From Thermomonas sp. (lineage in GTDB: Bacteria > Pseudomonadota > Gammaproteobacteria > Xanthomonadales > Xanthomonadaceae): a stretch of 64,000 nucleotides of DNA. The DNA lies in assembly GCF_023953935.1 (NCBI RefSeq), contig NZ_JAMLIW010000002.1, positions 62,001-126,000 of the forward strand, read 5' to 3'. Positions 3,216 to 59,351 of this stretch are shown in pieces (within the stretch, counting starts at the first letter, position 1; each line of letters opens with the position of its first letter). Made by a program: the position numbers and the translations under genes. A model generated the notes under the pieces. It was not told where the DNA came from. It did no database searches and worked only from the letters and a program-made list of their open reading frames with translations.

Positions 3216-4707
3216 GGCCTTGCCCGGCCGTTGGCGCAGGTGCCGGCGCGGCCAGCAGGCCGGTCACCAGCCGCAGCGCGAAGTAGAGCATCGCCAGCAC
3301 GACCAAGCTGCCGCCAACCGCGCCGAACTTGTCGGAAACGGTCCACGCCTCGACCATGTGCTGGGCCATTCGCCGCGGCACGCTGGCATGGCCGCCGGCG
3401 AGGAAGCCGAACACGAAGATCAGTCCGCCGATGAAAAACACCGGGAAGCCCAGCCGATCCATGCCGCTGTTGGGCGGTGTCCACTTCAGGCTGCCGACGA
3501 CGTGGTACATCAGCGCCAGCACCATCGCCATCGTCCCTAGCAGCATGTAGAAGTGGAAATGCCCGGGCACCCACTGGGTGTTGTGCATGACCAGATTCAC
3601 CCGGATCGTGCCATCCAGGATCGCCGGCACCACGCCGGCCGCGAAGCCGAACATCGACAGCACCAGCAGCCGCGCCGGCATGTTCCAGCGGATCCGCGAA
3701 TGGTGCAGGTTGTTCAGCGCGCCAAAGGCCGTCACCAGGAACACCGGGAAGCCGCCGACCCAGGAGGCCACCTGCCCCATCACCGACACCCAGCGCGGCT
3801 GCGCGTAGTCCATCAGCAGGTGATGCGGGAACACCACGATCACGTACAGCGCGGTCACCAGCCACGCCCACAGGAACGGCCGGCCGATGTGGTAGGGCTT
3901 CTGGGTGTAGCGCGGCAGCAGCTCATAGACGGTGATCACCGCCATGTACATGGTCGCGTTGGCATACATGTGGCCGAACCAGTAGATCAGGTTCTTGATC
4001 ACCAGCGGGTTGAGCTTGACCTCCGGATAGAAGACGTTGACCAGGCTCATCACCAGCGCCACCGAGCCGACCACGATGCCGATCGAGTTGGCGATCAGCA
4101 CGCCGGCACCGGCCACGATCGCCTTCGGATGGTCGGGATCGACGGTTCCGCCGAACAGCCACTGCATCCCCATCGCCCGCGCCAGGTTGCCGAACCTGGC
4201 GGTCATGCCGCGGGCGACGTCGAGATAGAACAGCAGCTGGCCAACGCCGATGAACAGGTAGCCGAGCATGAACAGCGCCGACCATTGCGGCGTCCACAGC
4301 CCCATGCCCTGCACCGGCAGCGGATACAGGAAGGTCCACAGCGCGCCGTAGTGGCCGATGAAGATCGACAGCAGGATCGACACCACGCCCAGCATGAACA
4401 GCACGTAGTTGGTGACGAAAGCCCACATCCGCAGCTGCACGTACTTGCGCACGAAAAACCACATCGCCGCGGTGCTGGCCAGCGACATGGTGCCGATCAT
4501 CCCGGCGCCGTGCAGCGAGAGCAGTTCATAGAACAGGTTGGGCGCGACCTTGAGCCAGGTGGCCTGGGACAGGCGCATGGTCAGGCCGACGCTCATGATC
4601 ACCACGAACAGCAGGATCGCGGTCACCATGTAGAGGTTGAACGCGGTGCGGGCGCTGCCGCTCAGGCGTTCGTCTTCGGGGTAGAGGGTGAGCGAGGCCA
4701 TCGTCAT
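3187..4707 (-). CDS. ba3-type cytochrome c oxidase subunit I
   Basis: Catalytic subunit of a B-family (ba3-like) haem-copper oxidase that reduces O2 and pumps protons at the inner membrane. It has 506 residues with about 12-13 hydrophobic segments. Haem and copper ligands are readable: ELLSLHGAG (low-spin haem His), YWFGHMYANA, VFPHHLLMDY (CuB His pair) and TQWVPGHFHFYML (haem His pair). The ATG at 4707 overlaps the subunit II stop as ATGA; the longer open frame to 4974 is read-through of subunit II in another frame. Equivalent to Thermus CbaA. Confidence 0.93.
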   Translation of the reverse strand: MTMASLTLYPEDERLSGSARTAFNLYMVTAILLFVVIMSVGLTMRLSQATWLKVAPNLFYELLSLHGAGMIGTMSLASTAAMWFFVRKYVQLRMWAFVTNYVLFMLGVVSILLSIFIGHYGALWTFLYPLPVQGMGLWTPQWSALFMLGYLFIGVGQLLFYLDVARGMTARFGNLARAMGMQWLFGGTVDPDHPKAIVAGAGVLIANSIGIVVGSVALVMSLVNVFYPEVKLNPLVIKNLIYWFGHMYANATMYMAVITVYELLPRYTQKPYHIGRPFLWAWLVTALYVIVVFPHHLLMDYAQPRWVSVMGQVASWVGGFPVFLVTAFGALNNLHHSRIRWNMPARLLVLSMFGFAAGVVPAILDGTIRVNLVMHNTQWVPGHFHFYMLLGTMAMVLALMYHVVGSLKWTPPNSGMDRLGFPVFFIGGLIFVFGFLAGGHASVPRRMAQHMVEAWTVSDKFGAVGGSLVVLAMLYFALRLVTGLLAAPAPAPTAGQGHVATADAAG

Positions 4708-45097: not shown

Positions 45098-45358
45098 GCC
45101 CCCTCATCCGGCGCTGCGCGCCACCTTCTCCCGAAGGGAGAAGGAAGATCAAAAGCGCCGTATCGTCAAACCCCCTCTCCCCGTGACAACGGGGAGAGGG
45201 TCGGGGTGAGGGGCGCGAGCGCAGCGAGCGCGGCAGTGCAAGATCGCCCTCATCCGGCCTGCGGCCACCTTCTCCCAAAGGGAGAAGGAAAATCAGCGAT
45301 TGCCCCCGCCCCTCATCCGGCGCTGCGCGCCACCTTCTCCCGAAGGGAGAAGAAAAAA
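45098..45358. repeat. array of palindromic CCCCTC / GGGAGAAGG units (right of DUF559 gene)
   Basis: At least four units in the 356-bp gap between the DUF559 gene and the exporter gene: about 45098-45152, 45171-45218, 45247-45292 and 45308-45355. Three are of the CTCATCCGG...CACCTTCTCCC...GGGAGAAGG type, and one is CCCCCTCTCCCC...GGGGAGAGGG. Nothing else is seen in the gap. Confidence 0.8.
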
Positions 45359-45363
45359 CCCGC

Positions 45364-47043
45364 CTACACCAGCCGCCCCGCCTCCAGCCGCAGCACGCGG
45401 TCGGCCAGCGCCAGGCTCGCCGGACGGTGGGTGATCAGGATCACCGTGCGGCTGGCCAGCACGTCGCGGCATGCCTCGATGAATTCCAGCTCGCCCTCCG
45501 GATCGAACATCGCCGTCGCCTCGTCCAGAATCAGGATCGCCGGGTCGCGCAGCAGCGCCCGCGCCAGCGCCAGCCGCTGCCGCTGCCCGCCCGACAGCCG
45601 CACGCCCTGATCGCCGATCACGGTGTCGTAGCCATCCGGCAGAGCCAGGATGAAATCATGCGCCCGCGCCGCCCGCGCCGCCTGCTCGATGGCGTCCTGC
45701 GCCGCATCGCTGCGCCCGTAGGCGATGTTCTCGCGCACCGTGGCGTTGAACAGCAGCACCTGCTGCGCCACCAGCCCGATCTGGTTGCGCAGCGCCTGCA
45801 ACCGGAAGTCGCGCAAGTCGATGCCGCCGATCGTCACCCGCCCCGCCTGCGGTTCCACCAGCCGCAGCAGCAGATGCACCAGCGTGCTTTTGCCGGCCCC
45901 GTTGACCCCGGTCAGCGCCACCGTCTCACCGGCGCGGATGGTCAAATCCAGCCCGCGAAACAGCGGCTCACGGCCGGGATAGGTGAAGTCCACGCCCGCA
46001 TACACCACGTCACCGCGTGCCGGCAGCTGCTCCTGCGTGCCCGCGTCCACCTCGGGCTGCGCGTCCAGCGCGTCTGACAGCCGCCGCAGCGAGCCCATCG
46101 CCGCCATCGTGCTGCCATACACCGAGGCCAGACTGCCCACCGGTCCCACCAGCACCATGCCATACAGGAACACGCTGACCAGCTCGCCCATCCGCATTTC
46201 GCTGCTGACCACCATGCGCCCGCCCAAGCCCAGCAGCAGCAGTATCGCGCCGGCCCCGATCACGTAAACCGCCGGATGGATCCCCCCCTGCCACTTCGCC
46301 AGCCGCAGGTCTGCGGCATACACCGCATCGGCGCGCTGGCGAAAGCGCGCGTCCTCCGTCGGCTCGGTGCCGAAGGCCTTGATCAGCGCCAGCGATTCCA
46401 GATTCTGCTCGGCCAGTGAAGACTGCTCGGCCCAGGCCTGCGCCGACGCGTGCGACAGCGGCCGCAACCTGCGCCCGACCAGCTTCAGCGCCAGAAACAG
46501 CACCGGCATCAGCACCGCCACGGTCACCGCGATCAGCGGCGCCAGATGCAGCATCATCGCCAGCGCGCCAACCAAGGTGAACAGCAGCGGCAGCAGCGGC
46601 AGCAAGGTGCCCGTCACATAACGCCCGATCCGGTAGATATCCACATACAGCAGCGCCAGCACGTCGCCGCGCTGGCGGGCGTTGTGCCATTCCAGCGGCA
46701 GCGCCTGCAAATGCGCGTACAGCTCCGAACCGGCGTCCGCCTGCAGCCGTCCGGACACTTTCTGCAGCTGGATCGCCGTCACGTAGCCCAGCCCCTGCTG
46801 GGCGCAGATCAATCCGAACAGCAGCCACAGCAGAGCGCCCAGATGCTGGTTGAGCATCAGCCGGTCGGTCATCACCCCACCCAGCCATGGCTGGGCCAGC
46901 GTCGCTGCGCTTTGCACCAGCATCAGCACCAGCACCAGCACCAGCGCCGGCAGGTGCGGGCGCAATACCGGCAGCAGCAGGTGCCGGATCGTGCGCGGGC
47001 ACGTTCCCGAGTCCCCCGCAGCTGTTTCTGCCGTGTCTGTCAT
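45364..47043 (-). CDS. ABC exporter, probable lasso peptide transporter (D)
   Basis: A 559-residue half-transporter: about six membrane helices (residues 20-310), then the ATPase. P-loop GVNGAGKST, Q-loop LVAQQVLLFNATVRENI, signature LSGGQRQRLALARAL, Walker B ILILDEATAMFD, His in LITHRPAS. No N-terminal C39 peptidase, as expected when the leader is removed by a separate B2 protease. Divergent from B1 with a 127-bp gap. Its assignment to the lasso cluster rests on position and is likely but not certain. Confidence 0.85.
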   Translation of the reverse strand: MTDTAETAAGDSGTCPRTIRHLLLPVLRPHLPALVLVLVLMLVQSAATLAQPWLGGVMTDRLMLNQHLGALLWLLFGLICAQQGLGYVTAIQLQKVSGRLQADAGSELYAHLQALPLEWHNARQRGDVLALLYVDIYRIGRYVTGTLLPLLPLLFTLVGALAMMLHLAPLIAVTVAVLMPVLFLALKLVGRRLRPLSHASAQAWAEQSSLAEQNLESLALIKAFGTEPTEDARFRQRADAVYAADLRLAKWQGGIHPAVYVIGAGAILLLLGLGGRMVVSSEMRMGELVSVFLYGMVLVGPVGSLASVYGSTMAAMGSLRRLSDALDAQPEVDAGTQEQLPARGDVVYAGVDFTYPGREPLFRGLDLTIRAGETVALTGVNGAGKSTLVHLLLRLVEPQAGRVTIGGIDLRDFRLQALRNQIGLVAQQVLLFNATVRENIAYGRSDAAQDAIEQAARAARAHDFILALPDGYDTVIGDQGVRLSGGQRQRLALARALLRDPAILILDEATAMFDPEGELEFIEACRDVLASRTVILITHRPASLALADRVLRLEAGRLV

Positions 47044-47170
47044 GGTCGCCAGTGTAGCCTCCCCTCGATTGCGTCCACTCCGGTTTGATCTGCCTGCCGC
47101 GACTTCCGCATCCCTCGGGTGTGTTTGCTACGCTATACGGCACCATGCAATCAGGCCAGGTATCGCCCAA

Positions 47171-47464
47171 GTGACCGCCACCTCTTCAGGCATCGACTCC
47201 ACGCGCCGGGTCGTGCGCAGCGACAATGTGCTCGCCCAGCAGGTCGGCGACGAAACCGTGCTGCTGGATCTGGCCGGCGAACAGTATTTCGGGTTGAATG
47301 CCGTGGGGTCCCGCATCTGGGAACTGCTGGAACACGAACCCAGCATCGCCTCCATGGTCACCACCTTGCAGCAGGAGTTCGACGCGGCGCCCGACCAGAT
47401 CGCTTCCGACCTGCACACCCTGATCAACGAGCTGGCCGCTGCGGGGCTGGTTCGCATCGGCTAG
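47171..47464 (+). CDS. lasso peptide B1 / PqqD-family RiPP recognition element
   Basis: 97 residues from a GTG at 47171. PqqD-like winged-helix fold: VVRSDNVLAQQVGDETVLLD, EQYFGLNAVGSRIWELLEHE, a helix pair, and DLHTLINELAAAGLVRIG. Such proteins bind the leader peptide and present it to protease and cyclase. It is followed 4 bp later by B2, the usual split-B arrangement. Confidence 0.88.
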   Translation: MTATSSGIDSTRRVVRSDNVLAQQVGDETVLLDLAGEQYFGLNAVGSRIWELLEHEPSIASMVTTLQQEFDAAPDQIASDLHTLINELAAAGLVRIG

Positions 47465-47468
47465 CGCC

Positions 47469-47921
47469 GTGTTCACGAAGCTGGCGCGCCTGCGCAAACT
47501 GCGCTGGGGCGAACTTGTCCAGCTGCCGCTGCTGCTCGCCGGTGTCGTGCTCGTTGATCTAGCTCTGGCCGTTTTCGGCTACAGGCGCACCCTGCGCGCA
47601 GTCGAACGGTTGAGTCAGCGAAATGCCCCGCAGGTAGGCAACCTCACCGCCCTCGACCGCGCCAGACGGCTGGCGTGGCGGGTCGATCTGGTAGGTCGCC
47701 ACGGCCCGGTACGCCGCAGCTGCCTGCGCTGCGCACTGCTCACCTACGGACTGCTGCGCTGGCGCGGCCTGCGCCCGATCCTGCGCCTCGGTCTTCCCGT
47801 GCAACCTCAAGCTGCCACCTTCATGGCGCACGCCTGGGTGGAGGTGGAAGGTGCCCCCCTGCTTCCGGGCGATGCTCGCTACACCCCCTTCATCCCCGGT
47901 CAGCCACCACCACCTCTCTGA
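47469..47921 (+). CDS. lasso peptide B2 leader protease (transglutaminase-like)
   Basis: 150 residues (GTG start). An N-terminal hydrophobic helix (LPLLLAGVVLVDLALAVFG) precedes the cysteine-protease core: catalytic Cys85 in RRSCLRCALLTYGLLRWRG, His121 in FMAHAWVEVEG and Asp135 downstream. It cuts precursor leaders, probably just after the T-A dipeptide found in both precursors. Pro-rich last residues. Confidence 0.9.
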   Translation: MFTKLARLRKLRWGELVQLPLLLAGVVLVDLALAVFGYRRTLRAVERLSQRNAPQVGNLTALDRARRLAWRVDLVGRHGPVRRSCLRCALLTYGLLRWRGLRPILRLGLPVQPQAATFMAHAWVEVEGAPLLPGDARYTPFIPGQPPPPL

Positions 47922-47940
47922 AAGCAAGCATAACAACCGC

Positions 47941-47969
47941 TTGACAAGCCCCGCGGAACTCCCTGAAAC
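47941..47969 (+). promoter_or_regulatory. possible promoter upstream of precursor 1
   Basis: TTGACA at 47941-47946, a 17-bp spacer, then TGAAAC at 47964-47969, 97 bp before the precursor start. The -35 is perfect, the -10 weak. A separate promoter would let the precursor be made in excess of the enzymes. Confidence 0.4.
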
Positions 47970-48065
47970 TGAGCTTGGGTCACAGTGTTACGACAGTCGC
48001 CTGCCCGGGGTCACCCAAGATCGTTGGCAAGGTTCAACCAATCAAACCCAGCAAGGAGCGCACCC

Positions 48066-48239
48066 ATGAGCGTCGCCCACAACCACCGCACCACCGCAGC
48101 TCGCAAGGTCTATGCGGCTCCCAAATTGCAGCGCTTCGGCGGCATCGGTGCGCTGACCGCTGGTGGGGTGGGTTCCGTGCAGGAAAGCATGTCCGCAATG
48201 GGCATGGGCTGCGGTAATGCTCTCAAGAAGTACTGCTGA
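48066..48239 (+). CDS. lasso peptide precursor 1
   Basis: 57 residues. Leader (32) carries the recognition pattern Y16-x2-P19-x-L21-x3-G25-x5-T31 (YAAPKLQRFGGIGALT), ending T-A. Predicted core, residues 33-57: G1-G2 start, Glu8 for an 8-membered macrolactam ring (GGVGSVQE), then a 17-residue Met/Gly-rich tail with Cys17 and a C-terminal Cys25. A good AAGGAG site lies at 48053-48058. It sits between B2 and the methyltransferase. Core boundaries are predicted from the Thr at -2 rule. Confidence 0.88.
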   Translation: MSVAHNHRTTAARKVYAAPKLQRFGGIGALTAGGVGSVQESMSAMGMGCGNALKKYC

Positions 48240-48391
48240 TCTCACTTGGTGGTTTGCCGCCGGTTTTCAATGGGTGACGCACGAGCGGAGCGGCTCGCCA
48301 TCTACCTGCTCCGGCCTGCAGCGCCATTCAGGTATCCAGTGCTGGCGGGGCATTGGCAGCAGAGGCACCGCCGCCGTGAACAAAGGACGGT

Positions 48392-49552
48392 ATGTACAGT
48401 GACGGCTATTCCATCCGCGACTACGGCGCGATGGTCAACGATGAGGCACGTTTTCGCCCTTTTGCCGAAGCCCTGAAGCGCCGTGTCACTGCCGGTTCGG
48501 TGGTGCTGGACATTGGCGCTGGTACCGGGATCCTGTCATTTCTGGCCTGCAAATTCGGCGCACGCAAGGTGTATGCGGTCGAACCGGACGCCTCCATCGA
48601 AGTCGCCAAACTCTGCGCCCGCAACATCCCGGGCAGTGAGCGGATCACCTGGATCCAGGACCTGTCCACTCGCATCACCCTGCCGGAACCCGCAGATCTC
48701 GTGATCGGCGACCTGCATGGTTCGATGCCGTTCTACACCGGCAACATCGCCTCGCTTGCCGATGCGCGCACCCGCCACCTCAAGCCCGGTGGCCGCATGC
48801 TGCCGCAACGCGACCTGCTGTTGGCGGCACCGGCACAATCATCGAAAGAATTCAGCTACATCGAGTCTCCGTGGCAATCCAATGCGTTCGGGCTCGACCT
48901 GTCCGCCGGCCTGCCCTGGGTCACCAGTACCCTGACACGCGCGCAAAGTGCCCCGATCGCGCCCGAACAACTGCTGGCAGCGCCGCAGCAATGGGGCGTC
49001 ATCGACTACGCGGCCGGTGCCGCCGACCGCGCCGACGCCACGCTGGAATGGACAATCGAACGCGCCGGAACCCTGCATGGGCTCTACCTCTGGTTTGACG
49101 GCGTGGTGGACGACGGACTCGGGTTCAGCAATTCCCCCCTGCTTCCGGAACTCGTCTACGGGCGCAATTTCGCCCCGCTGGAACGCGCCTTTGACGTGGT
49201 TGTCGGCGACCGCATTCACTGCCGGTTGGCGGTGAACCGGGTGCGGAATGACTACATCTACCGCTGGGAAACCCGCATCGAAGGCACGGACGGCACGGTA
49301 AAAGGCAACTTCAGGCAAACCAGCTTCCGCCTGCCGCCCAGCCAGGCCGACGTGCTGCGAAAAATGGCGACCGACTACACCCCAAACTTGGACCAGGACG
49401 GGCAGATTCGCCGCGAAGCACTGCTTGCCATGGACGGGCAGCGCAGCCTCGGCGACATTGCAGAACTGCTGCTCACCCGCTTCCCGGATTGGCTCAAGGA
49501 TCGGCAAAGCGCACTGGACATCGCCGCCGACCTGTCCAAGCGCCATGGCTGA
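48392..49552 (+). CDS. PRMT-fold SAM methyltransferase of the lasso cluster
   Basis: 386 residues. The N-terminal half resembles protein arginine methyltransferases: YSIRDYGAMVNDEARFRPF, SAM motif VLDIGAGTGILSFLACKFGARKV (Asp at 40), AVEPD. The double-Glu loop is replaced (VIGDLHGSMPFYTGN, with Asp and Gly/Thr where PRMTs have Glu). A beta-barrel follows (to about 310). The last 70 residues (LLAMDGQRSLGDIAELLLTRF) look like a PqqD-type winged helix. It lies between precursor 1 and the cyclase, so it probably tailors the peptide; the residue modified is unknown. Confidence 0.82.
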   Translation: MYSDGYSIRDYGAMVNDEARFRPFAEALKRRVTAGSVVLDIGAGTGILSFLACKFGARKVYAVEPDASIEVAKLCARNIPGSERITWIQDLSTRITLPEPADLVIGDLHGSMPFYTGNIASLADARTRHLKPGGRMLPQRDLLLAAPAQSSKEFSYIESPWQSNAFGLDLSAGLPWVTSTLTRAQSAPIAPEQLLAAPQQWGVIDYAAGAADRADATLEWTIERAGTLHGLYLWFDGVVDDGLGFSNSPLLPELVYGRNFAPLERAFDVVVGDRIHCRLAVNRVRNDYIYRWETRIEGTDGTVKGNFRQTSFRLPPSQADVLRKMATDYTPNLDQDGQIRREALLAMDGQRSLGDIAELLLTRFPDWLKDRQSALDIAADLSKRHG

Positions 49553-49569
49553 TCCAACAGCATGACGCC

Positions 49570-51510
49570 ATGAAGGCGATTTGCGGGTTCCTGCATCTGG
49601 AAGGACAAGCCGCGCCGCCCGCTGCGCTGGACGCACTGCGGCAGGCGCTGGTCTACAACCCCGCGACGTTCACCGAATCCAGCGGCCGGCTGCGCAGCGA
49701 CGCCCGGATACAAGACGCCTTGGCGCTTGGCGCCGCGCGCTGGAGCCAGCAGCCGGACACGCTTGCGGAACCGCAAACCGGCATGCACGCCGCGACCGGC
49801 TGCATCGCAACCGTCGATGCGCGTATTGCCAACGCATCAGAACTACGCGCTGCCCTGAGCCTCGGGAATACGACTGCGGGTACGCCCGAACTGCTGCTGC
49901 ATGCCTGGCTGCGTTGGGGGGAAGACTGCGTTGACCATCTTGAAGGTGATTTCGCATTTGCTGTGTTCGACCCTCGCGAACAGGTGTTGTTTTGCGCCCG
50001 TGACCGCATGGGCGTGCGCCCGTTCTATCTGCACCACGTCCCCGGGAAATTCTTCGCCTTCGCCTCGCGCGCACGCGCGCTGCTGGCCCTGCCGCAAGTG
50101 CCGCGTGATCTCAACCCGGGGCGCATCGCCGACGCCTTGGTCACGCCCCTGGAGATCATCGACAAGACCAGCACGTTCCATGCGGCCATCCAGCGGTTGC
50201 CGCCGGCGCATACCTGCCGCGTCACGCCCGATGCCTTGTCGCTTCGCAACTACTGGAAGCCCCGTCCCGGACGCGTGGCACCATTGCCACGCGATGATGC
50301 CGGCTGGGCAGAAGCGCTGACCGAGGTGCTGGAGCGCGCGGTTGCCGCCCATCTGGGCGAGGGCAACATGGTGGGCTGCATGCTCAGCGGTGGCATGGAT
50401 TCCTCCTCGCTCGCCGCCATCGCGCGCGACCAGCGCATCCGCGCAGGGCGTGCTTCGATCGCCACGTTTTCCTCGATCGACTGTGTCGAAGGATGCGCCG
50501 AAACCATCGCCATCCGTGCCGTCCTGACCCAGCCCGGGTTCGCCCCCACCCTGATTGACCCCGACCAGGTGGACGCCATAGCCGCGGAACTGCACGCCGC
50601 ACTGTTCGCCTGCGAAGAACCGTTCGATATCTGGATGTCGCTGGTGCATGCGCAATACCTGATGGCCGCGCGCTCTGGAATGACCGCCGTGATGGACGGA
50701 ATCGATGCCGACGTTCTGCTGAGCAGCGGCAGTGCGCTGACCCGCCAGATCCGCCACGGGCACTGGGTGTCCGCATGGCGCAACGCCCGTGGCCAGCAGC
50801 GCCACTACCCCGACCTGCCGGCATGGCGCACGCTGGCCGGTGCAACACGTTCCGCACTGACGCCCGATTGGGCGCGCCCACCGCTGCGCAGCCTGCGCCG
50901 CAGGCTGCGGCAGCGGGACAGCCTCGACCACTCCTGGATTGCACCCGAGTTCGCCGCCGCCGTTCGCCTTGAAGACCGCCTGGCGACCTTCGGGCGCTGG
51001 TCACCCCCTGTGCTGGAACACACGGCACCCGAGGAAGCTGCCGTCGGACTGTTGCACCCCTGCACCATTGGCGGTTTCGAACGCTACCACCGGGTTGCGA
51101 GCTGGCATGGTGTCGATCCGCGCCATCCATTCAACGATCGCGAAGTGATGGAACTGTGCGTCAACCTGCCCGACCACCAGCGCTTCCGCAACGGACACAC
51201 CAAATTCGTGCTGCGCAACGCCATGCGCGGACGCCTGCCGGAAAGCGTGTGCTGGCGCACCGGCAAGGAACATCTGGGCAGCGATGTCACCCTGCGCGTG
51301 CTTGCCCACGGCGTCGATCCGACCCAGGCACTGGGCGACCGCCGCGACCTGCTGGCACCCTATATCGCACGCGGGAAACTTGAACGCGCCATCGCCATCC
51401 CGTGGGCACAGGCCAACGCAGACACCCAGGGAGACATCTTGCAAGCATTGGCGCTGGCATTGTGGCTGGAGCGACATCACAACACCCAGCCCACCGCTGC
51501 AGGAGACTGA
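49570..51510 (+). CDS. lasso cyclase (asparagine-synthetase homologue, C protein)
   Basis: 646 residues. N-terminal glutaminase-like domain with Cys at position 5 (MKAICGF, not directly after Met), then the synthetase domain with PP-loop CMLSGGMDSSS (Ser273). It activates the ring Glu by adenylation so the core N-terminal Gly forms the isopeptide. ATG at 49570 starts just after the methyltransferase stop (49552). VDPRHPFNDREVMELCVNLP near the end is typical. One cyclase must handle rings of 8 and 9 residues if both precursors are real. Confidence 0.92.
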   Translation: MKAICGFLHLEGQAAPPAALDALRQALVYNPATFTESSGRLRSDARIQDALALGAARWSQQPDTLAEPQTGMHAATGCIATVDARIANASELRAALSLGNTTAGTPELLLHAWLRWGEDCVDHLEGDFAFAVFDPREQVLFCARDRMGVRPFYLHHVPGKFFAFASRARALLALPQVPRDLNPGRIADALVTPLEIIDKTSTFHAAIQRLPPAHTCRVTPDALSLRNYWKPRPGRVAPLPRDDAGWAEALTEVLERAVAAHLGEGNMVGCMLSGGMDSSSLAAIARDQRIRAGRASIATFSSIDCVEGCAETIAIRAVLTQPGFAPTLIDPDQVDAIAAELHAALFACEEPFDIWMSLVHAQYLMAARSGMTAVMDGIDADVLLSSGSALTRQIRHGHWVSAWRNARGQQRHYPDLPAWRTLAGATRSALTPDWARPPLRSLRRRLRQRDSLDHSWIAPEFAAAVRLEDRLATFGRWSPPVLEHTAPEEAAVGLLHPCTIGGFERYHRVASWHGVDPRHPFNDREVMELCVNLPDHQRFRNGHTKFVLRNAMRGRLPESVCWRTGKEHLGSDVTLRVLAHGVDPTQALGDRRDLLAPYIARGKLERAIAIPWAQANADTQGDILQALALALWLERHHNTQPTAAGD

Positions 51511-51572
51511 ACCTTTGCAAAAACTCCTGTATCATGGGCAGTTATGTTTTTTCTACAGGGGGCTTTACATCC

Positions 51573-51794
51573 ATGAAAGATTTCACCGCTCCGTCTGCCA
51601 CCTCGATTTCCGCCATCCCGAAGATGCGCGTGAGGGAGGACAGCCCGGCGCACCCACGCAACCGCCGTTGGTCCCCCCCCGTACTGACCCGGCTCGGCAG
51701 TATCGCCAACAACACGGCAGGTGGCAGCAGACCCAATGGCACCGAGTTCTGGCGATGGTCGTGTGACTCCCAAAGCATCTTCATCCGCTGCTGA
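51573..51794 (+). CDS. lasso peptide precursor 2
   Basis: 73 residues. A longer leader (49) repeats the recognition spacing exactly: W33-x2-P36-x-L38-x3-G42-x5-T48 (WSPPVLTRLGSIANNT), again ending T-A. Predicted 24-residue core: Gly-Gly start, Glu9 for a 9-membered ring (GGSRPNGTE), then a 15-residue aromatic tail (FWRWSC...) with Cys15 and C-terminal Cys24. It begins 63 bp after the cyclase stop and precedes the kinase. Core sequence is unrelated to precursor 1 except for the Gly-Gly start and the cysteine placement. Confidence 0.86.
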   Translation: MKDFTAPSATSISAIPKMRVREDSPAHPRNRRWSPPVLTRLGSIANNTAGGSRPNGTEFWRWSCDSQSIFIRC

Positions 51795-51824
51795 TTCCCT
51801 GTTGCAGTAACCATCTGCAGATCA

Positions 51825-52802
51825 GTGTCCGCGCATCTGACCCCTCATCACACCTACCACTACGGCAACGGCTGTCTGCTGACTGCGCTGGAACTTCCCG
51901 AACTTGCGGAACTGCCATCGCGACCGGCTCTCCCCGACCCGGTTCTGCACATCGTGCGAACTGTTCGGCCACCTGCGCCACCCGCAGGCGGTGCAATACG
52001 CCAGCACGTCTGGAACGACAACGACGGCAACGCCTGCATCCTCGGCGAACGCTGGGAAGATGGACGCTACCGACTGGAGTTCCCCGACACCGCCACTGCG
52101 GTCATCGCGTCCGACGGGCGCGACATCCAGTTGCATGCCGACGCCGAAATCGATGCGGTTACCCTGCGGCATGTACTGCTGGATCAGATCCTGCCGCGCG
52201 TCCTGTCCTTGCATGAACCTCTCGTGCTGCACGGTGCCGCCGTCGTCACCCGGACGGCGCGCACCGTTGTCGTGCTCGGCCGAAGCGGCATGGGGAAATC
52301 CACGCTGTCCGCCGGCTTCGAACGTTTTGGTGGTGGCGCATTGGGGGACGACGGCGTCATCGTCCAGTTCGACGGCAACGCGTCGCGCGTATTGCCCACG
52401 TATCCCGGCTATCGCCTGTGGCCGGATTCATTCGACGAACTGTTCCCCGAGCGCGCGGATCACGGCCTGCCCTTCGCCTCCGGATCCAGCAAGCGCCGCC
52501 TGCTGCCTGCAGGGGAACAGCTCCGCTCACCGGCATCCCCCATTGCCGGCATTGCGATACTGAGCGAGGGAACGGGCGATGTCTGCGCCATTTCCCTGCA
52601 ACCGATGACCGCCAGCGACGCCTGCATGGCGCTGATCGCCAACAGCTTCGTGATCGACCCGAACAACCCTGCCCACATGGCACGGCAGCTGGCCACTGCC
52701 GCACGACTCTGCCAGAACGTCCGCGTATACGCGTTGCAGTATCCGCGTGACTACACCCTGTTGCCTGAAGTCGTCAATGCCGTTTCAGCCGCGTTTGAAT
52801 AA
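51825..52802 (+). CDS. HPr-kinase-like protein (possible lasso peptide kinase)
   Basis: 325 residues from a GTG at 51825. The HprK-type catalytic core is visible: LHGAAVVTRTARTVVVLGRSGMGKSTLSAGF (P-loop at 152-160), GGGALGDDGVIVQFDG and LPTYPGYRLWPDSF. In Paenibacillus such kinases phosphorylate the C-terminal Ser of lasso peptides. Neither core here ends in Ser, so an internal Ser/Thr or another role must be considered. It overlaps the convergent nucleotidyltransferase gene by 18 bp. Confidence 0.83.
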   Translation: MSAHLTPHHTYHYGNGCLLTALELPELAELPSRPALPDPVLHIVRTVRPPAPPAGGAIRQHVWNDNDGNACILGERWEDGRYRLEFPDTATAVIASDGRDIQLHADAEIDAVTLRHVLLDQILPRVLSLHEPLVLHGAAVVTRTARTVVVLGRSGMGKSTLSAGFERFGGGALGDDGVIVQFDGNASRVLPTYPGYRLWPDSFDELFPERADHGLPFASGSSKRRLLPAGEQLRSPASPIAGIAILSEGTGDVCAISLQPMTASDACMALIANSFVIDPNNPAHMARQLATAARLCQNVRVYALQYPRDYTLLPEVVNAVSAAFE

Positions 52803-53921
52803 ACGCACGACCCCAGTTACCCAGCGCGTCAAATACGCGCGCACCAGCGCGGCAGATGTGCCGCTGATGCTGTAGCGATAGCGCATGAATTCAGGCGAGG
52901 GGAACAGCTTGCGGCGCAGCCAGCCCAGCTTGCCGCGCCAGGGCAGCGCGGCCAGGTGGGCGCGGTCCATCGCGGCTTGATCGAGCGTGCTGCCAAGTTG
53001 CCAGTGCTCCTGCGCCGCTGCCGCGCGCAGGGACTGCAGCGCGGCGTCCGGAATTGCGGTGGCGAACGCCAGCCGGCTGGCTTCAAGGCCGTCCAGACAG
53101 GGCGTGGCGATGGCGCGCCGGGCGCACAGCGCCAGCAGAGTCTGCCATTGCGCAGCGTCCAGCGACCGCGCCAGCAGGTGGATGTCGAACAGCCAGATCA
53201 GCCGGTCGTGTTCGCCGGTGGGGAAATTGGTCACCCGATGCAGCAAGGCGTGCAGCAGGGCGTGCAGCGGGCCCAGCCCGCGCGCCGCCGGGTGCAGGTC
53301 CGGCAGCGGGATGGACGCCGCCCATAACTCGTCAAACGTCAGCGCTTTGGCCAGCTGCGCGCGGTTGGCGATGCGCCAGTGCAGGTCCACGGCAAATCCG
53401 CGCCGGCCCCGCTTTTCCAGCGCGGCCTCGAAACCCGCCGTTTGCGCGGGTCGCACCGAGGTTTGCAGCATGAAATCCCGCGCCTGCAGGCAGTCAACCG
53501 CCGTTTCCGCCGCGGCCAGTTCCGGCACCAGCAGGTCCACATCGCAACCCAGCCGCTGCCAGGGCTGCGGATACAGCCAGTGCGCCAGCGCGGTGCCCTT
53601 GAGCACCAGCACGCGCACGTCGCCTTCCGCCAGCGCCGCAATCGCTTCGCGCGCGATCAGACCGCGCTGCATCTCCTGCATGGCTTCCCGTTTGTTTCGC
53701 ACGGAAAGGGCTGCGTGCAGTTCCGTCAGCTCCGGGTACGCGGGCAGCACCTTGGCCACCGCGGCGGCCAGCAGCGCCGTCACGCCCTGCGCCTGAGCCA
53801 CATCCAGCGCCGGTTCGCCTGCCGCAGCCAGCGCCTCCCAGCGTGCGGGCAAGACCGTTTCGCGCAGGCAGTCTGCGCACAGTGCACGCAGCGCCGCAAA
53901 ATCCGCCGCCGGCGCGTTCAT
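52785..53921 (-). CDS. nucleotidyltransferase-family protein (NTP_transf_5-like)
   Basis: 378 residues. The polymerase-beta-like nucleotidyltransferase signature is VLVLKGTALAHWLYPQPW then LGCDVDLLV (metal-binding D-x-D), followed by GFAVDLHWRIA and LHALLHRVTNF. Members occur with lasso kinases and in polysaccharide loci; substrate unknown. ATG at 53921 overlaps the VanZ-like stop (ATGA), tying it to the polysaccharide operon, but it ends against the lasso kinase gene. Confidence 0.82.
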   Translation of the reverse strand: MNAPAADFAALRALCADCLRETVLPARWEALAAAGEPALDVAQAQGVTALLAAAVAKVLPAYPELTELHAALSVRNKREAMQEMQRGLIAREAIAALAEGDVRVLVLKGTALAHWLYPQPWQRLGCDVDLLVPELAAAETAVDCLQARDFMLQTSVRPAQTAGFEAALEKRGRRGFAVDLHWRIANRAQLAKALTFDELWAASIPLPDLHPAARGLGPLHALLHALLHRVTNFPTGEHDRLIWLFDIHLLARSLDAAQWQTLLALCARRAIATPCLDGLEASRLAFATAIPDAALQSLRAAAAQEHWQLGSTLDQAAMDRAHLAALPWRGKLGWLRRKLFPSPEFMRYRYSISGTSAALVRAYLTRWVTGVVRLFKRG

Positions 53922-54997
53922 GCGCCCTGCTCCACCGGCCGCACGATCAGTGCGCGGTGGCGCCAGGCCAGACCCGCCGCGCCGGCAGCCAGCCCGGTCA
54001 GCAGCCATTTCCAGCGCAACGCGGCCAGCAGGCTTTCCATGTCGAAAGTTTGCACCACCGCGGCGAAAGCGCCCCAAGCTGTCCACACCAGCAGGGCCAA
54101 CGCGACCGCGGCCAGCGGCCAGCGCAGGCGGGCAATCCGGACAACGCGGATTGATGACGCCAGCGGCCAAGACACGATGGCATCCCAAACCAGCAGCGCC
54201 ATCGCGGCCTGCCAGGCCGTCCCCAGCCAGACGGTCCAAGCCGCCAGCCGAGCCGCCGACGGCCGCGGGCAGGCCAAGCCCTGCGCCACCAGCACGTCGC
54301 GACCCGGCGTGCGCAGCAGGAGCAGCGTCAGCAGTCCTGCCAGAATCAGCCCCACGGCCAGCGGCATCCAGCTCAGGTGCAGCGGCGCGCGGCCGGACAG
54401 GAACACGAACAAGCGCAGCCCCAGCGCCAGCGCGAACAGCGCGTCGAACGCCAACAGCGGATAGCCGAACACGCGCCCCCACACCGCCGCCGACCACGGC
54501 AACAGCATCGTACCCAACAGCAGCAGTGCCGCCGCCACCAGCCGGATGCTGCCTACCCAACGCGCACAGCCCTGTGCCAGCGCACAAATGGCCAAGCCCA
54601 GCATGCCACCCAGCACGTCGTCGCGGGCGTCCTGCCAGTGCGGCGTCCGGCCCTGGGAGGCGAACTGCATCAGCTCGGTGCCCGCCCCCAGCGCCGCCAG
54701 CAGCAGCAGCGAGCGCCACCACGGCCAGCGCGGAAACACCAGCCGCAGGCCGATTCCGACCGCCGTGAAAAACGCCACGTGGTCCATGTCGAACGGGCCA
54801 GGCCACCCTTCCAGCCAACTCATGAAGCGGCTCAGCGGCGGCGCCGAAAACCGCAGCGCTCTCATCTGGCCGGACGAAAGCATCATCACCACGCCCACCA
54901 GCGCGCACAGCGCCAGCAGCAGCCAGGCGCCGCGGCGGCGTGCGCTTGTTTCCCGCAGCCAGCGCGGCCCGATGAAAAACCGCGCGGCCTCACTCAC
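53918..54997 (-). CDS. VanZ-like membrane protein
   Basis: 359 residues. The N-terminal VanZ-type domain (about 30-150; [50 protein letters not shown]) is followed by further membrane helices, about ten in total. Role unknown; VanZ-like proteins are common in polysaccharide clusters. GTG at 54997 overlaps the epimerase stop (GTGA); an alternative start is 55024. Confidence 0.82.
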
Positions 54998-56004
54998 GCG
55001 CGGTAGTACTCGCGGTACCAACACACGAAATTGGCCACGCCCTCTTCCACCGAAACCTGCGGTTCATAGCCGACATCGGCGGCAAGATCGGAAACGTCGG
55101 CTTCGGTGTCGGGCACGTCGCCGGCCTGCAGCGGCAGCATCTGCACCACCGCCTGCTTGCCCAGGCACTGCTCCAGCACTTCGATGTAGCGCAGCAGATC
55201 CACCATGTCGCGATTGCCGATGTTGTAGAGGCGGTACGGTGCCACCCCGCTGGTGGCAGGGTCCGGATTCATTGCATCCCACGCAGGATTCTTGCCCGGC
55301 ACCGTATCCAGCGCACGCACCACGCCCTCCACGATGTCATCGACGTAGGTGAAGCTGCGCTTGTGCTTGCCGTGGTTGAACACCTTGATCGGCTCGCCGG
55401 CAAGGATCGCCTTGGTGAACAGGAACAGCGCCATGTCCGGCCGGCCCCAGGGGCCATAGACGGTGAAGAAGCGCAGCCCCGTGCACGGCAGTCCGTACAG
55501 GTGCGCGTAGCTGTGCGCCATCATCTCGTTGGCCTTCTTGCTGGCCGCGTACAGCGTCAGCGGATGTTCCGTCGAGGCGTGCTCCGAGAACGGCATCGCG
55601 CGGTTGGCGCCATACACCGAACTGGTGGAGGCATAGACCAGATGCTCCACGCCATGATGGCGGCAGCCTTCCAGAATGTGCAGGAAGCCCGTCACATTGC
55701 TGGCCACATAGACATGCGGATTTTCGGCCGCATAGCGCACGCCCGCCTGCGCCGCCAGATTGATTACGCGGTTGGGCTTGTGGGCGGCAAACACGGCCTC
55801 GATGGCCGCGCGATCGGCCAGATCGGCGGCAACGTGGGTGTAATTCGGATTGTCCGCGAACCGCGCCAGCCGCGCCTGCTTGAGGCTGACATCGTAGTAA
55901 TCATTGAGGTTGTCGATGCCGACCACCTCATCCCCCCGCGCCAGCAGCCGCATCGCCACGTGGGAACCGATGAACCCGGCGGTGCCGGTGACCAGAACTT
56001 TCAT
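54994..56004 (-). CDS. UDP-glucuronate 4-epimerase-type NAD-dependent epimerase
   Basis: 336 residues. [17 protein letters not shown] (NAD loop), [47 protein letters not shown] (YxxxK), [21 protein letters not shown] and [19 protein letters not shown] are characteristic of the UDP-GlcA 4-epimerase branch. Supplies UDP-galacturonate for the polysaccharide encoded by the operon. Confidence 0.9.
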
Positions 56005-56052
56005 GCAGCTCTCAAAAAGTGTTGCAGCTCGCAATTCTATCGGGTTTGCCCG

Positions 56053-56119
56053 CAGGAGCGGGCTTTGCCCGCGACCCGTGCATCAAAACACACCTGTCGC
56101 GCGCAGGGCGCGCTCCTAC
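56053..56119. repeat. CAGGAGCGGGCTTTGCCCGC / GCGCGCTCCTAC REP pair
   Basis: Two inverted REP-like units (about 56053-56075 and 56095-56119) fill the 126-bp gap between the epimerase and glycosyltransferase genes. Confidence 0.75.
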
Positions 56120-56130
56120 GGGAGGGGGGG

Positions 56131-57270
56131 TTATTGCGTGGCTGGTGCGGGGGTCAGTTCGCGGTAGACGGCCAGGGTGTCGCGGATGACGATGCGTTCG
56201 TCGAAGCGGGTCAGGGCTTTGCGGCGGCCGGCTTCGGCCAGGCGGGCGCGCAGGGGCGGGGCATCCTGAAGGCGGGCTATGGCTTGCGCCAGCGCGGGGC
56301 CGTCGCGCACCGGCACCTGCAGGCCGTCCACGTCGTGCTGAACCACCTCGCGACAGCCGGGCACGTCGGTGGCGATCAGGGCGCAGCCGCTGGCCGCAGC
56401 TTCAATCAGGCCCTTCGGCAGCCCTTCGCGGTAGCTGGGCAGCGCCACCACGTCCACGCCGCGCAGCAGCTCCGGCATGTCGTCCACCTGCCCCAGCCAC
56501 TCCAGCACGCCTTCGGCCACCCAGTCGCGCACCGTCGCCGCGGGCACCGAGGCCGGATTGCCGGGATCGGGCGCGCCGGCCAGCAGAAAATCCACCGCCC
56601 GGCCCTGTTCGCGCAGCAGCCGCGCCGCTTCCACATACTCCGCCAGCCCCTTGTCCCAAAGCAGGCGCGCCGGCAGCAGCACCCGCAGCCGCTGGCCGGG
56701 CGTGCGGTGCGGGTCGGGGTGAAAGCGCGTGCAATCCACCCCGGAACCGGGGATCAGGCGCACATTGTCCGGCGCCACCAAGCCCGCCCGCGCAAACAGC
56801 GCCACGTCGTCGGGGTTTTGCAGAATCAGCCGGGCGCCCTTCCCGCCCAGCGCCAGCTTCAGCAGCGCCCGCACCAGCGGCCGCAGCAGCCGCGCCTTGA
56901 GCGAGCCGCTGATGAACACATACCCCATCCCGGTGGCCGCATTCACCCGCGCCGGCACCCCGGCCAGCCGCGCCGCCAGCGAACCGTACACCGCGCACTT
57001 GATGGTGAAACCGTGTACCAGCGTCGTCTGCTCGCGCTGCAGCAACCGCCACAGATGCCACAGCAGCGCCGCCTCGCGCAGCGGATTCAGGCTGCGGCGG
57101 TCCATCGGCAGCGCCTGCCAGCGCAGGCCCAGCGCCCGCAATTTTTCGCCATACGGCCCATCGGGCGACAGCAGCAGCACCTCATGCCCGGCGTCGCGCA
57201 AGGCAAGCGCCAGCGAACGCCGGAAGTTGTAGAGGTACCAATCGGTATTGGCGAACAGGACGATTTTCAT
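56131..57270 (-). CDS. glycosyltransferase family 4 (GT-B)
   Basis: 379 residues. MKIVLFANTDWYLYNFRRSL start, VNAATGMGYVFISGS, LIPGSGVDCTRFHPD, VLLPARLLWDKGLAEYVEAA and the C-terminal donor loop ALPSYREGLPKGLIEAAASG with the E-x7-E pattern. Resembles enzymes that add the first sugar residues to undecaprenyl-linked acceptors. ATG at 57270. Confidence 0.9.
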   Translation of the reverse strand: MKIVLFANTDWYLYNFRRSLALALRDAGHEVLLLSPDGPYGEKLRALGLRWQALPMDRRSLNPLREAALLWHLWRLLQREQTTLVHGFTIKCAVYGSLAARLAGVPARVNAATGMGYVFISGSLKARLLRPLVRALLKLALGGKGARLILQNPDDVALFARAGLVAPDNVRLIPGSGVDCTRFHPDPHRTPGQRLRVLLPARLLWDKGLAEYVEAARLLREQGRAVDFLLAGAPDPGNPASVPAATVRDWVAEGVLEWLGQVDDMPELLRGVDVVALPSYREGLPKGLIEAAASGCALIATDVPGCREVVQHDVDGLQVPVRDGPALAQAIARLQDAPPLRARLAEAGRRKALTRFDERIVIRDTLAVYRELTPAPATQ

Positions 57271-57293
57271 TGAATCAGGGGGAGCGATCTTTT

Positions 57294-57402
57294 TGTAGGA
57301 GCGGGCCCTGCCCGCGACTGGGGGTGTTTGGCATTTCCGTCGCGCGCGGGGCGCGCTCCTACGGGTTTGTTGCACATCTGTCGCGCGCAGGGCGCGCTCC
57401 TA
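57294..57402. repeat. cluster of GTAGGAGCGGGC / GCGCGCTCCTAC REP units
   Basis: Three units (about 57294-57318 forward, 57338-57361 and 57380-57402 inverted) in the 202-bp gap upstream of the glycosyltransferase gene, same family as at 56053. No gene is seen in the gap. Confidence 0.75.
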
Positions 57403-57472
57403 CAAGACGCGCTCCCACGAATTTGTCGCATACCCGCCGCACGTAGATTGCGCCTTCATAAAATTTTCCTAA

Positions 57473-58489
57473 TCACGCAGTTCCAGTCTCGGCCCGGCGC
57501 CAGCCGTTTACCCAGTTCCGAACTCGAACCAGCATCGGTCGTTCGTAAAAATACCAGTAGGCCATTCCGCCGGCGAGCGCAGTAGCAGATATAGCGCAGT
57601 ACGCGATGCCGACAGAAACGCCTTGCGGAACCAACCGAACCAGAAAAGAAAGCAGAGGGTTGTGTACGAGATACACCGAATATGAAGCCGCACCTAGTGC
57701 CATAAGCCAACGCCACGGCATCAACTTCGCGGACACAGGCGAGGCAGCAGCCCACACCATGCAACCAAACCCAGCGGCAACCAAAATTCGATTAGGAACA
57801 GCTGTCATGGTTTGCCATATAACCAACCCAACACCAATAAGTACCAACGGAAGCAACAAAAATCCGCGCACTTGAACCCGACGATTCGTCTGAAAGATGA
57901 CGACCCCAAGAACAAAACACAAGTTGATGGGCGACAGCAGGTATCTGGCGGCGAGCGGGAGCACAACACCCTGCCAATAAAAAAACAAGATCGCCACGGC
58001 CCATAGACAAAAAATTATACGAAATGAACGACGCCCAACGAAGAAAATGGAGTACAGCACATAAAACATCATCTCATGGACCAATGTCCACGCCACCGAC
58101 AACGCAGGCGGCTGATTGTCCGGAAACAATGTCAAGCTGGTCAACACACTGGGGGAACGATCGCTTTCGCTCATACCCGGCAGCAACAAATACAAAAAAT
58201 ACATAGCAATGCCAACAGGAAGATAAGGGACATAAATACGAATGACCCTAGCCTTGGCGTAATCACTCAGCCCCCTGCCCCGTTCAACCATTCTTTGCGC
58301 AGCAAACGCAATGATGAAACCAGACAAAACGAAGAAAAAATCCACACCGAAATAGCCATGTTCGAACCACGGCTGGGGTCCCATATTAGATACAAAGTGA
58401 TCTACGGATTGTTTGGCGTGATGCAACAGCACCCAAAGCGCCGCACCGCCCCGCATCACTTCGATCCACTCAAGCTTTCGCTCAGCCAT
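57473..58489 (-). CDS. acyltransferase family 3 (OafA/YrhL type)
   Basis: 338 residues with about ten membrane helices. Family motifs: EVMRGGAALWVLLHHAKQS (catalytic His), FGVDFFFVLSGFIIAFA, SVAWTLVHEMMFYVLY, YSVYLVHNPLL. Adds acetyl groups to the polysaccharide or its lipid-linked precursor. Visibly AT-richer than flanking genes, suggesting later acquisition. ATG 58489 overlaps the next gene's end by 8 bp. Confidence 0.9.
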   Translation of the reverse strand: MAERKLEWIEVMRGGAALWVLLHHAKQSVDHFVSNMGPQPWFEHGYFGVDFFFVLSGFIIAFAAQRMVERGRGLSDYAKARVIRIYVPYLPVGIAMYFLYLLLPGMSESDRSPSVLTSLTLFPDNQPPALSVAWTLVHEMMFYVLYSIFFVGRRSFRIIFCLWAVAILFFYWQGVVLPLAARYLLSPINLCFVLGVVIFQTNRRVQVRGFLLLPLVLIGVGLVIWQTMTAVPNRILVAAGFGCMVWAAASPVSAKLMPWRWLMALGAASYSVYLVHNPLLSFLVRLVPQGVSVGIAYCAISATALAGGMAYWYFYERPMLVRVRNWVNGWRRAETGTA

Positions 58490-59351
58490 TCTGGCCCCCA
58501 ATGTCCCGATAGCTGCCAAGCGCAAAACCATTATCGCGTGCCAATGCGCGCAAAGCGCCGGTTCGCAGATATTTCCACTCGGCCTGGCCCACCGTGCCAA
58601 CCCGCGTGTAGCCTTCCATCGCCTGCGCATCGTTGACCGGGTGCACCATCAGCTCGAATGTCTGGCCCTGCCCCTGCAAGACCACTTGCTGATAATCGAC
58701 GTCACCGTACTCCCGCGCGCCGCCGCCAAGGTCGAATACGCTGCCGATGGCATCGTTCCAGCGCACCTGACCGCGCCAGCGCCGCGTGGAGCGGGCCAGC
58801 ATCACCGCAAGCAAAGCTCGCCGCAACCGGCGGCCCATGCCCGCATTTCGGTCAGCAGCGACCCACGGCACCCGCATCGGGATTCCGACACGGCTGCAAT
58901 GCTGCGCAATGGCGTCAAACACCGGGCCAAACCCATGCACATGCTGGTGGCTGTCAATATGCGTCGGCTGGATACCCAGTTCATCCAGACGCTGCAACTG
59001 CGCCTGCAGTTCTGCGGCTATCTGCACCGCTGGCACCCGCCCCGCCAACAGGCGACGGGCCAACCGTCCCCGGCTGAAAAACGCACCGTCCGACCCGACA
59101 AGCGCGGAAACTTCCTGCACGGAGGCCAGTGGCCGCCCCCAAGTCAGGTTGAAATGCAGCCCAACACCCAGCTTTGGAACCTGCTTGGCGCAGCCCGCCG
59201 CACGCTCGGCGTCCGGGGTATTGGCCATCAGCGTGGTACTGGTGACTGTACCCGCCGCGTGGCACTCCAAAATGGCATCGGTGGCGGCAGGCACAAGCCC
59301 GAAATCATCCGCATTGACGATGAGCAGCCTTGGATTCACAGGCGTTTCCAC
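58482..59351 (-). CDS. ChbG/HpnK (YdjC-family) carbohydrate deacetylase
   Basis: 289 residues. LLIVNADDFGLVPAATDAIL carries the metal-binding Asp pair, ATG..TSTTLMANTPDAE follows, then GVGLHFNLTWGRPL and THIDSHQHVHGFGPV with metal His residues. Removes N-acetyl groups from diacetylated sugars or a hopanoid-linked sugar; in this operon probably from a polysaccharide intermediate. Overlaps the ATP-grasp gene by 16 bp. Confidence 0.88.
   Translation of the reverse strand: METPVNPRLLIVNADDFGLVPAATDAILECHAAGTVTSTTLMANTPDAERAAGCAKQVPKLGVGLHFNLTWGRPLASVQEVSALVGSDGAFFSRGRLARRLLAGRVPAVQIAAELQAQLQRLDELGIQPTHIDSHQHVHGFGPVFDAIAQHCSRVGIPMRVPWVAADRNAGMGRRLRRALLAVMLARSTRRWRGQVRWNDAIGSVFDLGGGAREYGDVDYQQVVLQGQGQTFELMVHPVNDAQAMEGYTRVGTVGQAEWKYLRTGALRALARDNGFALGSYRDIGGQNG

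Follow-up and report, generated by a model that had tools for sequence, protein, structure and literature searches.

Organization of the lasso peptide locus

The lasso peptide gene cluster described here belongs to a Thermomonas genome of 2.59 Mb and lies in a window of 64 kb, the whole stretch of DNA that was analysed (bases 62001-126000 of its contig). Nine genes occupy window positions 45364-53921 in the order ABC exporter, B1, B2, precursor A1, methyltransferase (MT), cyclase C, precursor A2, kinase K, and nucleotidyltransferase-like protein N; the exporter gene is on the minus strand, the next seven genes are on the plus strand, and N is convergent with them (Table 1). All nine were found at the positions given in an earlier reading of the DNA, hereafter the original prediction, with refined starts for B1 (probably GTG, 47171), A1 (ATG, 48066), C (ATG, 49570), and A2 (ATG, 51573). 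A PqqD-like B1, a Cys protease B2, and an asparagine synthetase-like C stand together, and by this gene content the locus is a split-B lasso peptide gene cluster.

Table 1. Genes of the Thermomonas lasso peptide cluster (window coordinates)
Feature	Position	Strand	Evidence
ABC exporter (D)	45364..47043	-	Pfam ABC_membrane and ABC_tran; divergent from the remaining genes
B1, discrete PqqD-like leader-binding protein	47171..47464	+	PqqD, 1.4e-18; nearest solved chain TbiB1, 5v1u
B2 leader peptidase	47469..47921	+	NF033537 above cut-off; Cys85/His121
Precursor A1, 57 amino acids	48066..48239	+	Leader motif; leader end T-A
PRMT-fold methyltransferase (MT), 386 amino acids	48392..49552	+	Profile match to PRMT6; predicted model
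C, lasso macrolactam cyclase, asparagine synthetase homologue	49570..51510	+	NF033535 (below cut-off), PF00733
Precursor A2, 73 amino acids	51573..51794	+	Leader motif; relative in L153
HprK-like peptide kinase K	51825..52802	+	Active-site motif; profile match to HPr kinase 1jb1
Nucleotidyltransferase-like protein N	52785..53921	-	PF14907, 5.9e-31; convergent

Two precursors and a probable single set of maturation enzymes

Precursors were defined as open reading frames (ORFs) with a start codon, the leader motif [YFW]xxPx[LIVM]xxxGx5T, and a tail of 12-40 residues. The motif occurs exactly twice in the 64 kb, in A1 and A2, the two ORFs in which it had originally been noticed; 60 codon-shuffled windows held a mean of 0.017 such ORFs (maximum 1), and none appeared in 300 shuffles of the cluster. 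AGGAG lies upstream of the A1 start and AGGGGG upstream of the A2 start. Both proteins have a YxxPxL-type leader (with Trp for Tyr in A2), Thr at position -2, and an acidic residue at core positions 7-9, and both match the lasso leader model NF033521 below threshold (E 0.036 and 0.063; 14.2 and 13.4 bits, cut-off 19). Cut after T-A, the predicted core of A1 is GGVGSVQESMSAMGMGCGNALKKYC, with Glu8 as ring acid, two Cys, and Val3, and that of A2 is GGSRPNGTEFWRWSCDSQSIFIRC, with Glu9 as ring acid, two Cys, and Ser3; in each core, one of the two Cys is the C-terminal residue. The calculated neutral monoisotopic masses of the dehydrated cores are 2446.06 Da for A1 and 2770.25 Da for A2, or 2444.04 and 2768.23 Da if a disulfide has formed. 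Predicted rings closed at E8 and E9 agree with the earlier expectation of differently sized lasso peptides. The description of the precursors as unrelated holds in that A1 and A2 show no resemblance to one another apart from the motif, yet relatives of both exist in lasso clusters elsewhere in Thermomonas: A1-similar cores with a KHC end are present in 6 other MT-bearing clusters, and the MT-less cluster L153 holds a relative of A2 (53% over 32 residues). An A2-like precursor ORF at L029:6468 has an in-frame stop four residues into the core and adjoins two intact precursors.

For comparison, 25 Thermomonas genomes were searched; B2 is present in 15 of them, at 16 loci, all of which were mapped (window included). 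Loss of the precursors from beside the enzymes in relatives had been named beforehand as the finding that would speak against the original prediction, and a motif precursor does stand beside the enzymes at 15 of the 16 B2 loci, the exception being L154 on a 3.3 kb contig.

The Thermomonas genome holds a single B2 and a single strong lasso C, other C-like places reaching at most 97.7 bits; A1 and A2 therefore most likely use one enzyme set, as originally proposed, and on these gene counts a single B1/B2/C set probably serves both precursors. B1 has TbiB1 as its nearest solved chain (1.4e-9). B2 scores 64.7 bits with lasso_biosyn_B2 (cut-off 33), and its Cys85 and His121 are kept in all 21 aligned rows, window included, in pieces that stop before the third, acidic residue. 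C matches Asn_synthase at 1.9e-37 and has a SGGxDS loop that is invariant in 5 aligned rows; its best NCBIfam match is the lasso cyclase model NF033535 (5.1e-105), yet below cut-off (352.5 versus 525 bits), and the C proteins of six relatives that were scanned have the same best match, also below cut-off (296.5-517.4 bits). That opposite-strand C proteins of the relatives are exopolysaccharide amidotransferases was considered and rejected, since those six score best to the lasso cyclase model. The exporter (ABC_membrane, 1.1e-35; ABC_tran, 1.7e-34) has homologues of 64-87% identity at 13 of the 15 other Thermomonas lasso loci and of 31-41% identity in L150 and L151.

A PRMT-fold methyltransferase without the double-Glu pair

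Residues 1 to ~310 of MT make up a PRMT core, and residues ~316-385 form an extra helical domain, referred to below as the tail. The PRMT catalytic core and barrel are recovered both by profile search (PRMT6, best E 2.8e-62) and in the predicted model (pLDDT 90.5; TM 0.78 to PRMT2, by target length), and the fold assignment of the original prediction is thereby supported, with no implication of arginine methylation. PRMT enzymes carry a catalytic pair of glutamates on the double-E loop; at these positions, read off the PRMT6 row of the alignment, the window MT has Asp107 and Thr116. Both glutamates are present in none of 21 members of the broad MT family and in none of 9 members from the genus; without this pair, the PRMT fold is therefore not to be equated with arginine methylation. 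A genuine arginine (or lysine) methyltransferase acting on the core or on another protein seems to us very unlikely: the whole PRMT core is conserved and both window cores contain Arg or Lys, but the glutamate pair is missing throughout, and the MT-associated cores of L033 and L061 have neither Arg nor Lys.

Compared by eye, all MT-associated cores have no acceptor residue in common besides the ring acid and the C terminus. The C terminus is thus among the few groups shared by every such core, including those free of Arg and Lys, and MT could esterify the C-terminal carboxylate of the precursor, for which the action of StspM on lassomycin-like peptides is the described precedent (PMC9266682, PMC8498205). 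StspM, however, is modelled on mitomycin-7-O-methyltransferase and not on a PRMT (PMC9266682), and the cores have no conserved C-terminal residue; we regard C-terminal esterification as somewhat unlikely.

Distribution of the methyltransferase and its link to lasso genes

Scanning the named genomes with the window MT alone returned no relative, and scanning them with the aligned MT family returned at least 113. For the best 80 of these, the surrounding loci were searched for the tail and for lasso genes (B1, B2, C, or K; tblastn E ≤1e-3): 17 of the 80 loci carry the tail, and lasso genes lie nearby at 14 of the 17 tail-bearing loci versus 7 of the 63 tail-less ones (Fisher p 3.8e-8, a test that is confounded, since the proteins with a tail were the source of the tail model and also stand nearest to the query). 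The 14 tail-bearing, lasso-linked loci come from Proteobacteria, Acidobacteria, Gemmatimonadetes, and Rokubacteria; the tail-bearing loci without lasso genes are L054 (a 3.4 kb contig), L058, and L089. Among tail-less relatives, L039, L040, L044, L045, and L046 are not near lasso-type genes.

At the order level, MT matches were found in 19 of 398 genomes at 1e-30. The two full-length matches outside the genus both fall in lasso-like clusters: in L042 (G118), MT is accompanied by B1, C, and K, without a B2 match, and L178 (G401) combines B2, C, K, and a Ser3-bearing motif precursor, without a B1 match. At the family level, 10 of 247 genomes have matches at 1e-20; one of these loci, L156 (G222), combines B1, B2, C, K, N, and MT, and a motif precursor was not found there.

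Kinase, nucleotidyltransferase, and core position 3

K matches TIGR04352 at 1.2e-8, below cut-off (34.5 versus 200 bits), and HPr kinase 1jb1 by profile at 2.3e-7. His136, Gly152, Gly157, Lys158, Ser159, Thr160, Asp175, and Asp176 are invariant in 13 aligned rows and Gly155 nearly so; the His, Walker A, and Asp-Asp motif of BsfK/PadeK-type lasso kinases is intact, in line with the HprK-like kinase that had been recognized at the outset. The motif printed for BsfK (H148-G163-G166-G168-K169-S170-D186-D187; PMC10368454) is matched by H136-G152-G155-G157-K158-S159-D175-D176 of K, with one extra residue between His and the first Gly. BsfK is described as phosphorylating core Ser3, accepting Thr but not Tyr, and being assisted by B1 (PMC10368454).

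Position 3 was compared in 17 cores from 13 kinase-bearing Thermomonas clusters, all cut one residue after the motif Thr; left aside were L151 (two cores), L150, where a kinase was not seen, L154, which lacks a precursor, and the truncated L029 ORF. Ser or Thr occupies position 3 in 16 of the 17, compared with 1 to 6 of the 17 at every other position from 1 to 11, and the sole exception is Val3 of window A1. Beyond Thermomonas, Ser/Thr3 is often missing from clusters with other kinases (e.g., L053, L056, L059, and L064), and it is present in L048, L061, L066, L088, and L178. Like PadeK, K might instead act in both precursors on a hydroxyl at the C terminus or elsewhere, with the position-3 pattern reflecting ring structure or descent. 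PadeK, ThcoK, and PsmK are described as acting on a C-terminal Ser (PMC9266682), the cores of L151 end in Ser, and Ser3 is found in L150, where a kinase was not seen; not one of the 17 cores, however, has Ser or Thr as its last residue, both window cores end in Cys, and BsfK offers a precedent for residue 3, all of which makes a PadeK-like K unlikely.

N matches PF14907 above cut-off, is the only such match in the genome, and, as a PF14907 protein in a lasso locus, may be a counterpart of PsmN and BsfN. N and the VanZ-like protein encoded next to it may, on the other hand, belong to a neighbouring polysaccharide locus rather than to the lasso pathway, as the convergent orientation of N and the epimerase-like and glycosyltransferase genes that follow would allow. 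We give this assignment a low probability, given that N has matches at 13 of the 16 Thermomonas lasso loci (window included; none in L028, L150, and L151), that no second PF14907 protein is encoded, and that PsmN and BsfN are linked to lasso peptides in print (PMC9266682, PMC10368454).

Probable mosaic origin of the cluster

Relatives of MT occur in 10 of the 25 Thermomonas genomes, although that of G005 is only 33% identical and lies on a different contig from its B2. Nine Thermomonas lasso clusters carry MT (the window and L027 to L034); K is matched in these nine and in L149, L151, L152, L153, and L155, and was not seen in L150 or L154. In the MT tree, the window protein groups with L027-L032 (83/93, moderate support); in the C tree, it falls outside a group of L149 and L027-L032 (100/100); and in the N tree, it joins the MT-less clusters L149 and L155 (100/99). 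On these trees, the window cluster is read as a mosaic. The kinases of the nine MT-bearing Thermomonas clusters group with those of the MT-bearing L048 and L066 (90/93, below the level that the tool marks with a star); L149, L152, L153, and L155 stand apart from the MT-bearing Thermomonas group, and the kinases of other MT-bearing clusters (e.g., L055, L056, L059, and L061) lie outside the group of Thermomonas with L048/L066. L153 has an A2-like precursor and no MT, either in the cluster or, as far as was seen, in its genome. The simplest reading of these trees and gene contents would be that A1 arrived with MT and A2 came from another cluster type.

Such a history could also have left a relic, with only one precursor being processed and the other surviving from recombination between clusters, and the truncated A2-like ORF of L029 speaks for this. 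In the window, by contrast, the ORFs of both A1 and A2 are intact, with ribosome-binding-like sequence, the full motif, and a plausible ring acid, and processing of one precursor only is improbable in our view.

Proposed division of tailoring between the two peptides

Cores ending in K[HY]C number 8 in 7 clusters, all of them MT-bearing (L027, L028, L029 with two, L030, L031, L032, and window A1), and this end is absent from all 8 cores of the MT-less, kinase-matched loci L149, L151, L152, L153, and L155. MT probably serves A1, because A1-like cores were seen only with MT and an A2-like core is found in the MT-less L153; K probably serves A2, because A2 has Ser3 and A1 has Val3. We consider it about evenly balanced whether the locus is a mosaic in which a single B1/B2/C set and one exporter serve two lasso peptides while the tailoring is split between them. 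The original prediction of two tailored peptides from one enzyme set is supported as regards B1, B2, and C; for the tailoring enzymes, core position 3 and the MT-linked precursors suggest that A1 and A2 probably do not use them to the same extent.

In the split-tailoring scheme, B1 would hold the [YW]xxPxLxxxGx5T leaders while K, as a BsfK-like kinase, would phosphorylate Ser3 of A2, and N may add a sugar or nucleotide to the A2 phosphate, as PsmN does; MT, perhaps docking through its extra C-terminal domain, would methylate the A1 precursor at a non-arginine site. B2 would cleave after T-A, C would join Gly1 to Glu8 in A1 or to Glu9 in A2, each peptide would gain a disulfide, and the ABC protein would export both.

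Several observations, with the confounding of the Fisher test, weigh against this scheme. The split is claimed for the window cluster only and depends on one Val3; Thr3-bearing A1-type peptides in other MT clusters of the genus may be both phosphorylated and methylated. In L033 and L034, MT occurs together with a different core type and is thus not confined to clusters with A1-like cores. Cores within the genus are related and do not represent independent events; L151, whose kinase belongs to another tree branch, has two cores with Asn3 and a C-terminal Ser, which lower the count to 16 of 19, and Ser3 may be partly structural, because L150, a 9.6 kb contig on which a kinase was not seen, has it too. 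By four kinds of comparison the MT tail resembles PqqD weakly, and an RRE, a winged helix-turn-helix like PqqD or B1, is at most a possible assignment for it. Nor does the tail strictly mark lasso clusters, because several tail-less relatives of the order (L036, L037, L038, L041, and L043) are also near some lasso-type genes.

More broadly, and as a tentative proposal that we hold to be less probable than the scheme for this cluster, MT may represent a lasso tailoring class of several phyla that derived from the PRMT fold, lost the arginine-binding glutamates, gained a leader-docking domain, and methylates a non-arginine site, alongside a partner kinase whose mark falls on core residue 3; in the Thermomonas cluster, two precursors sharing one enzyme set would then take separate tailoring routes.

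Comparison with known lasso systems

The original prediction knew of no described cluster with this gene combination. Much of the combination is in fact established: a kinase and a nucleotidyltransferase occur together in the pseudomycoidin cluster and in bsf of Bradymonas (PMC9266682, PMC10368454) as well as in rumen clusters (PMC7533575), a proteobacterial A-B1-B2-C-K-D gene order is on record (PMC5067487), and several precursors per cluster are known from the caulosegnins and others (PMC7549694). What stands is MT, the part of the cluster without precedent found in the open-licence literature: a PRMT-like lasso enzyme was not found in open-licence PubMed Central text, a scope that leaves aside subscription papers such as the RODEO survey.

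The closest system is bsf of Bradymonas sediminis, which likewise has A, B1, B2, C, D, K, and N, a YxxPxL leader, the same kinase residue motif, and a kinase acting on core Ser3; it differs in that the published gene list includes no methyltransferase, one precursor is named, and leader position -2 is Ile instead of Thr (PMC10368454). Pseudomycoidin (psm) and paeninodin (pade) share the HprK-like kinase and, for psm, the nucleotidyltransferase, but they come from Firmicutes, the C-terminal Ser is phosphorylated, and a PRMT-like enzyme is not mentioned in the sections describing them (PMC9266682); paeninodin has a split B, as in Thermomonas (PMC5067487).

Lasso methylation as such is known, as a C-terminal ester formed by StspM (PMC9266682) and, on the way to aspartimide, as Asp methylation by enzymes of the isoaspartyl type (PMC9266682, PMC13352647). 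LasF/StspM and LihM/isoaspartyl types are S-adenosylmethionine enzymes that tailor lasso peptides, as MT is predicted to be, but they are described as homologues of O-methyltransferases and isoaspartyl methyltransferases, without a PRMT core and extra C-terminal domain (PMC9266682, PMC13352647). With the animal protein arginine methyltransferases PRMT2, PRMT6, and CARM1, MT shares the catalytic domain and beta-barrel, as judged by profile and predicted fold; it differs from them in lacking the double-Glu pair, in its C-terminal helical domain, and in its bacterial peptide-cluster context. To our knowledge, the caulosegnin and other multi-precursor clusters have no kinase, nucleotidyltransferase, or methyltransferase. 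Caulosegnins I-III resemble the present case in having several precursors in one cluster (PMC7549694), and caulosegnin I differs in having an isopeptidase in place of the exporter (PMC5067487).

If MT works on lasso precursors, the chemistry of this peptide family, prized for its stability, would be extended by one reaction and by an enzyme fold derived from PRMT. In that case, the pair of PRMT-like enzyme and kinase would flag clusters for mining in Acidobacteria, Gemmatimonadetes, Rokubacteria, and Proteobacteria. A1 and A2 provide a natural internal control, the predicted phosphorylation residue being present in one and absent from the other.

Related loci and neighbouring genes

In L034 (G012:C3), an internal stop interrupts MT, and both K and the ABC protein match in two pieces, which may reflect decay or sequence errors. 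L035 (G005:C169, 5.3 kb) has two distant MT relatives in tandem and the edge of an ABC exporter with 69% identity; it may be one end of another lasso cluster that the contig truncates. Two MT-bearing Thermomonas clusters encode a GT41-family (O-GlcNAc/N-glucosyltransferase-like) protein between C and N (L031:12737-15106, L032:12253-14493), which might add a glycosylation step. Next to the lasso cluster of L033 lie a radical SAM/SPASM protein and a PqqD-like partner of its own (L033:3161-4240 and 4273-4527), which may represent a second peptide pathway.

After N, window positions 53918-58630 contain VanZ-like, NAD-epimerase-like (by eye), glycosyltransferase, and acyltransferase genes; the lasso cluster thus adjoins a polysaccharide-type locus, by eye apparently likewise in L027. 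Beside the exporter gene, at 45100-45350, intergenic sequence of a repeated palindromic CTTCTCCC/GGGAGAAGG type was noted by eye.

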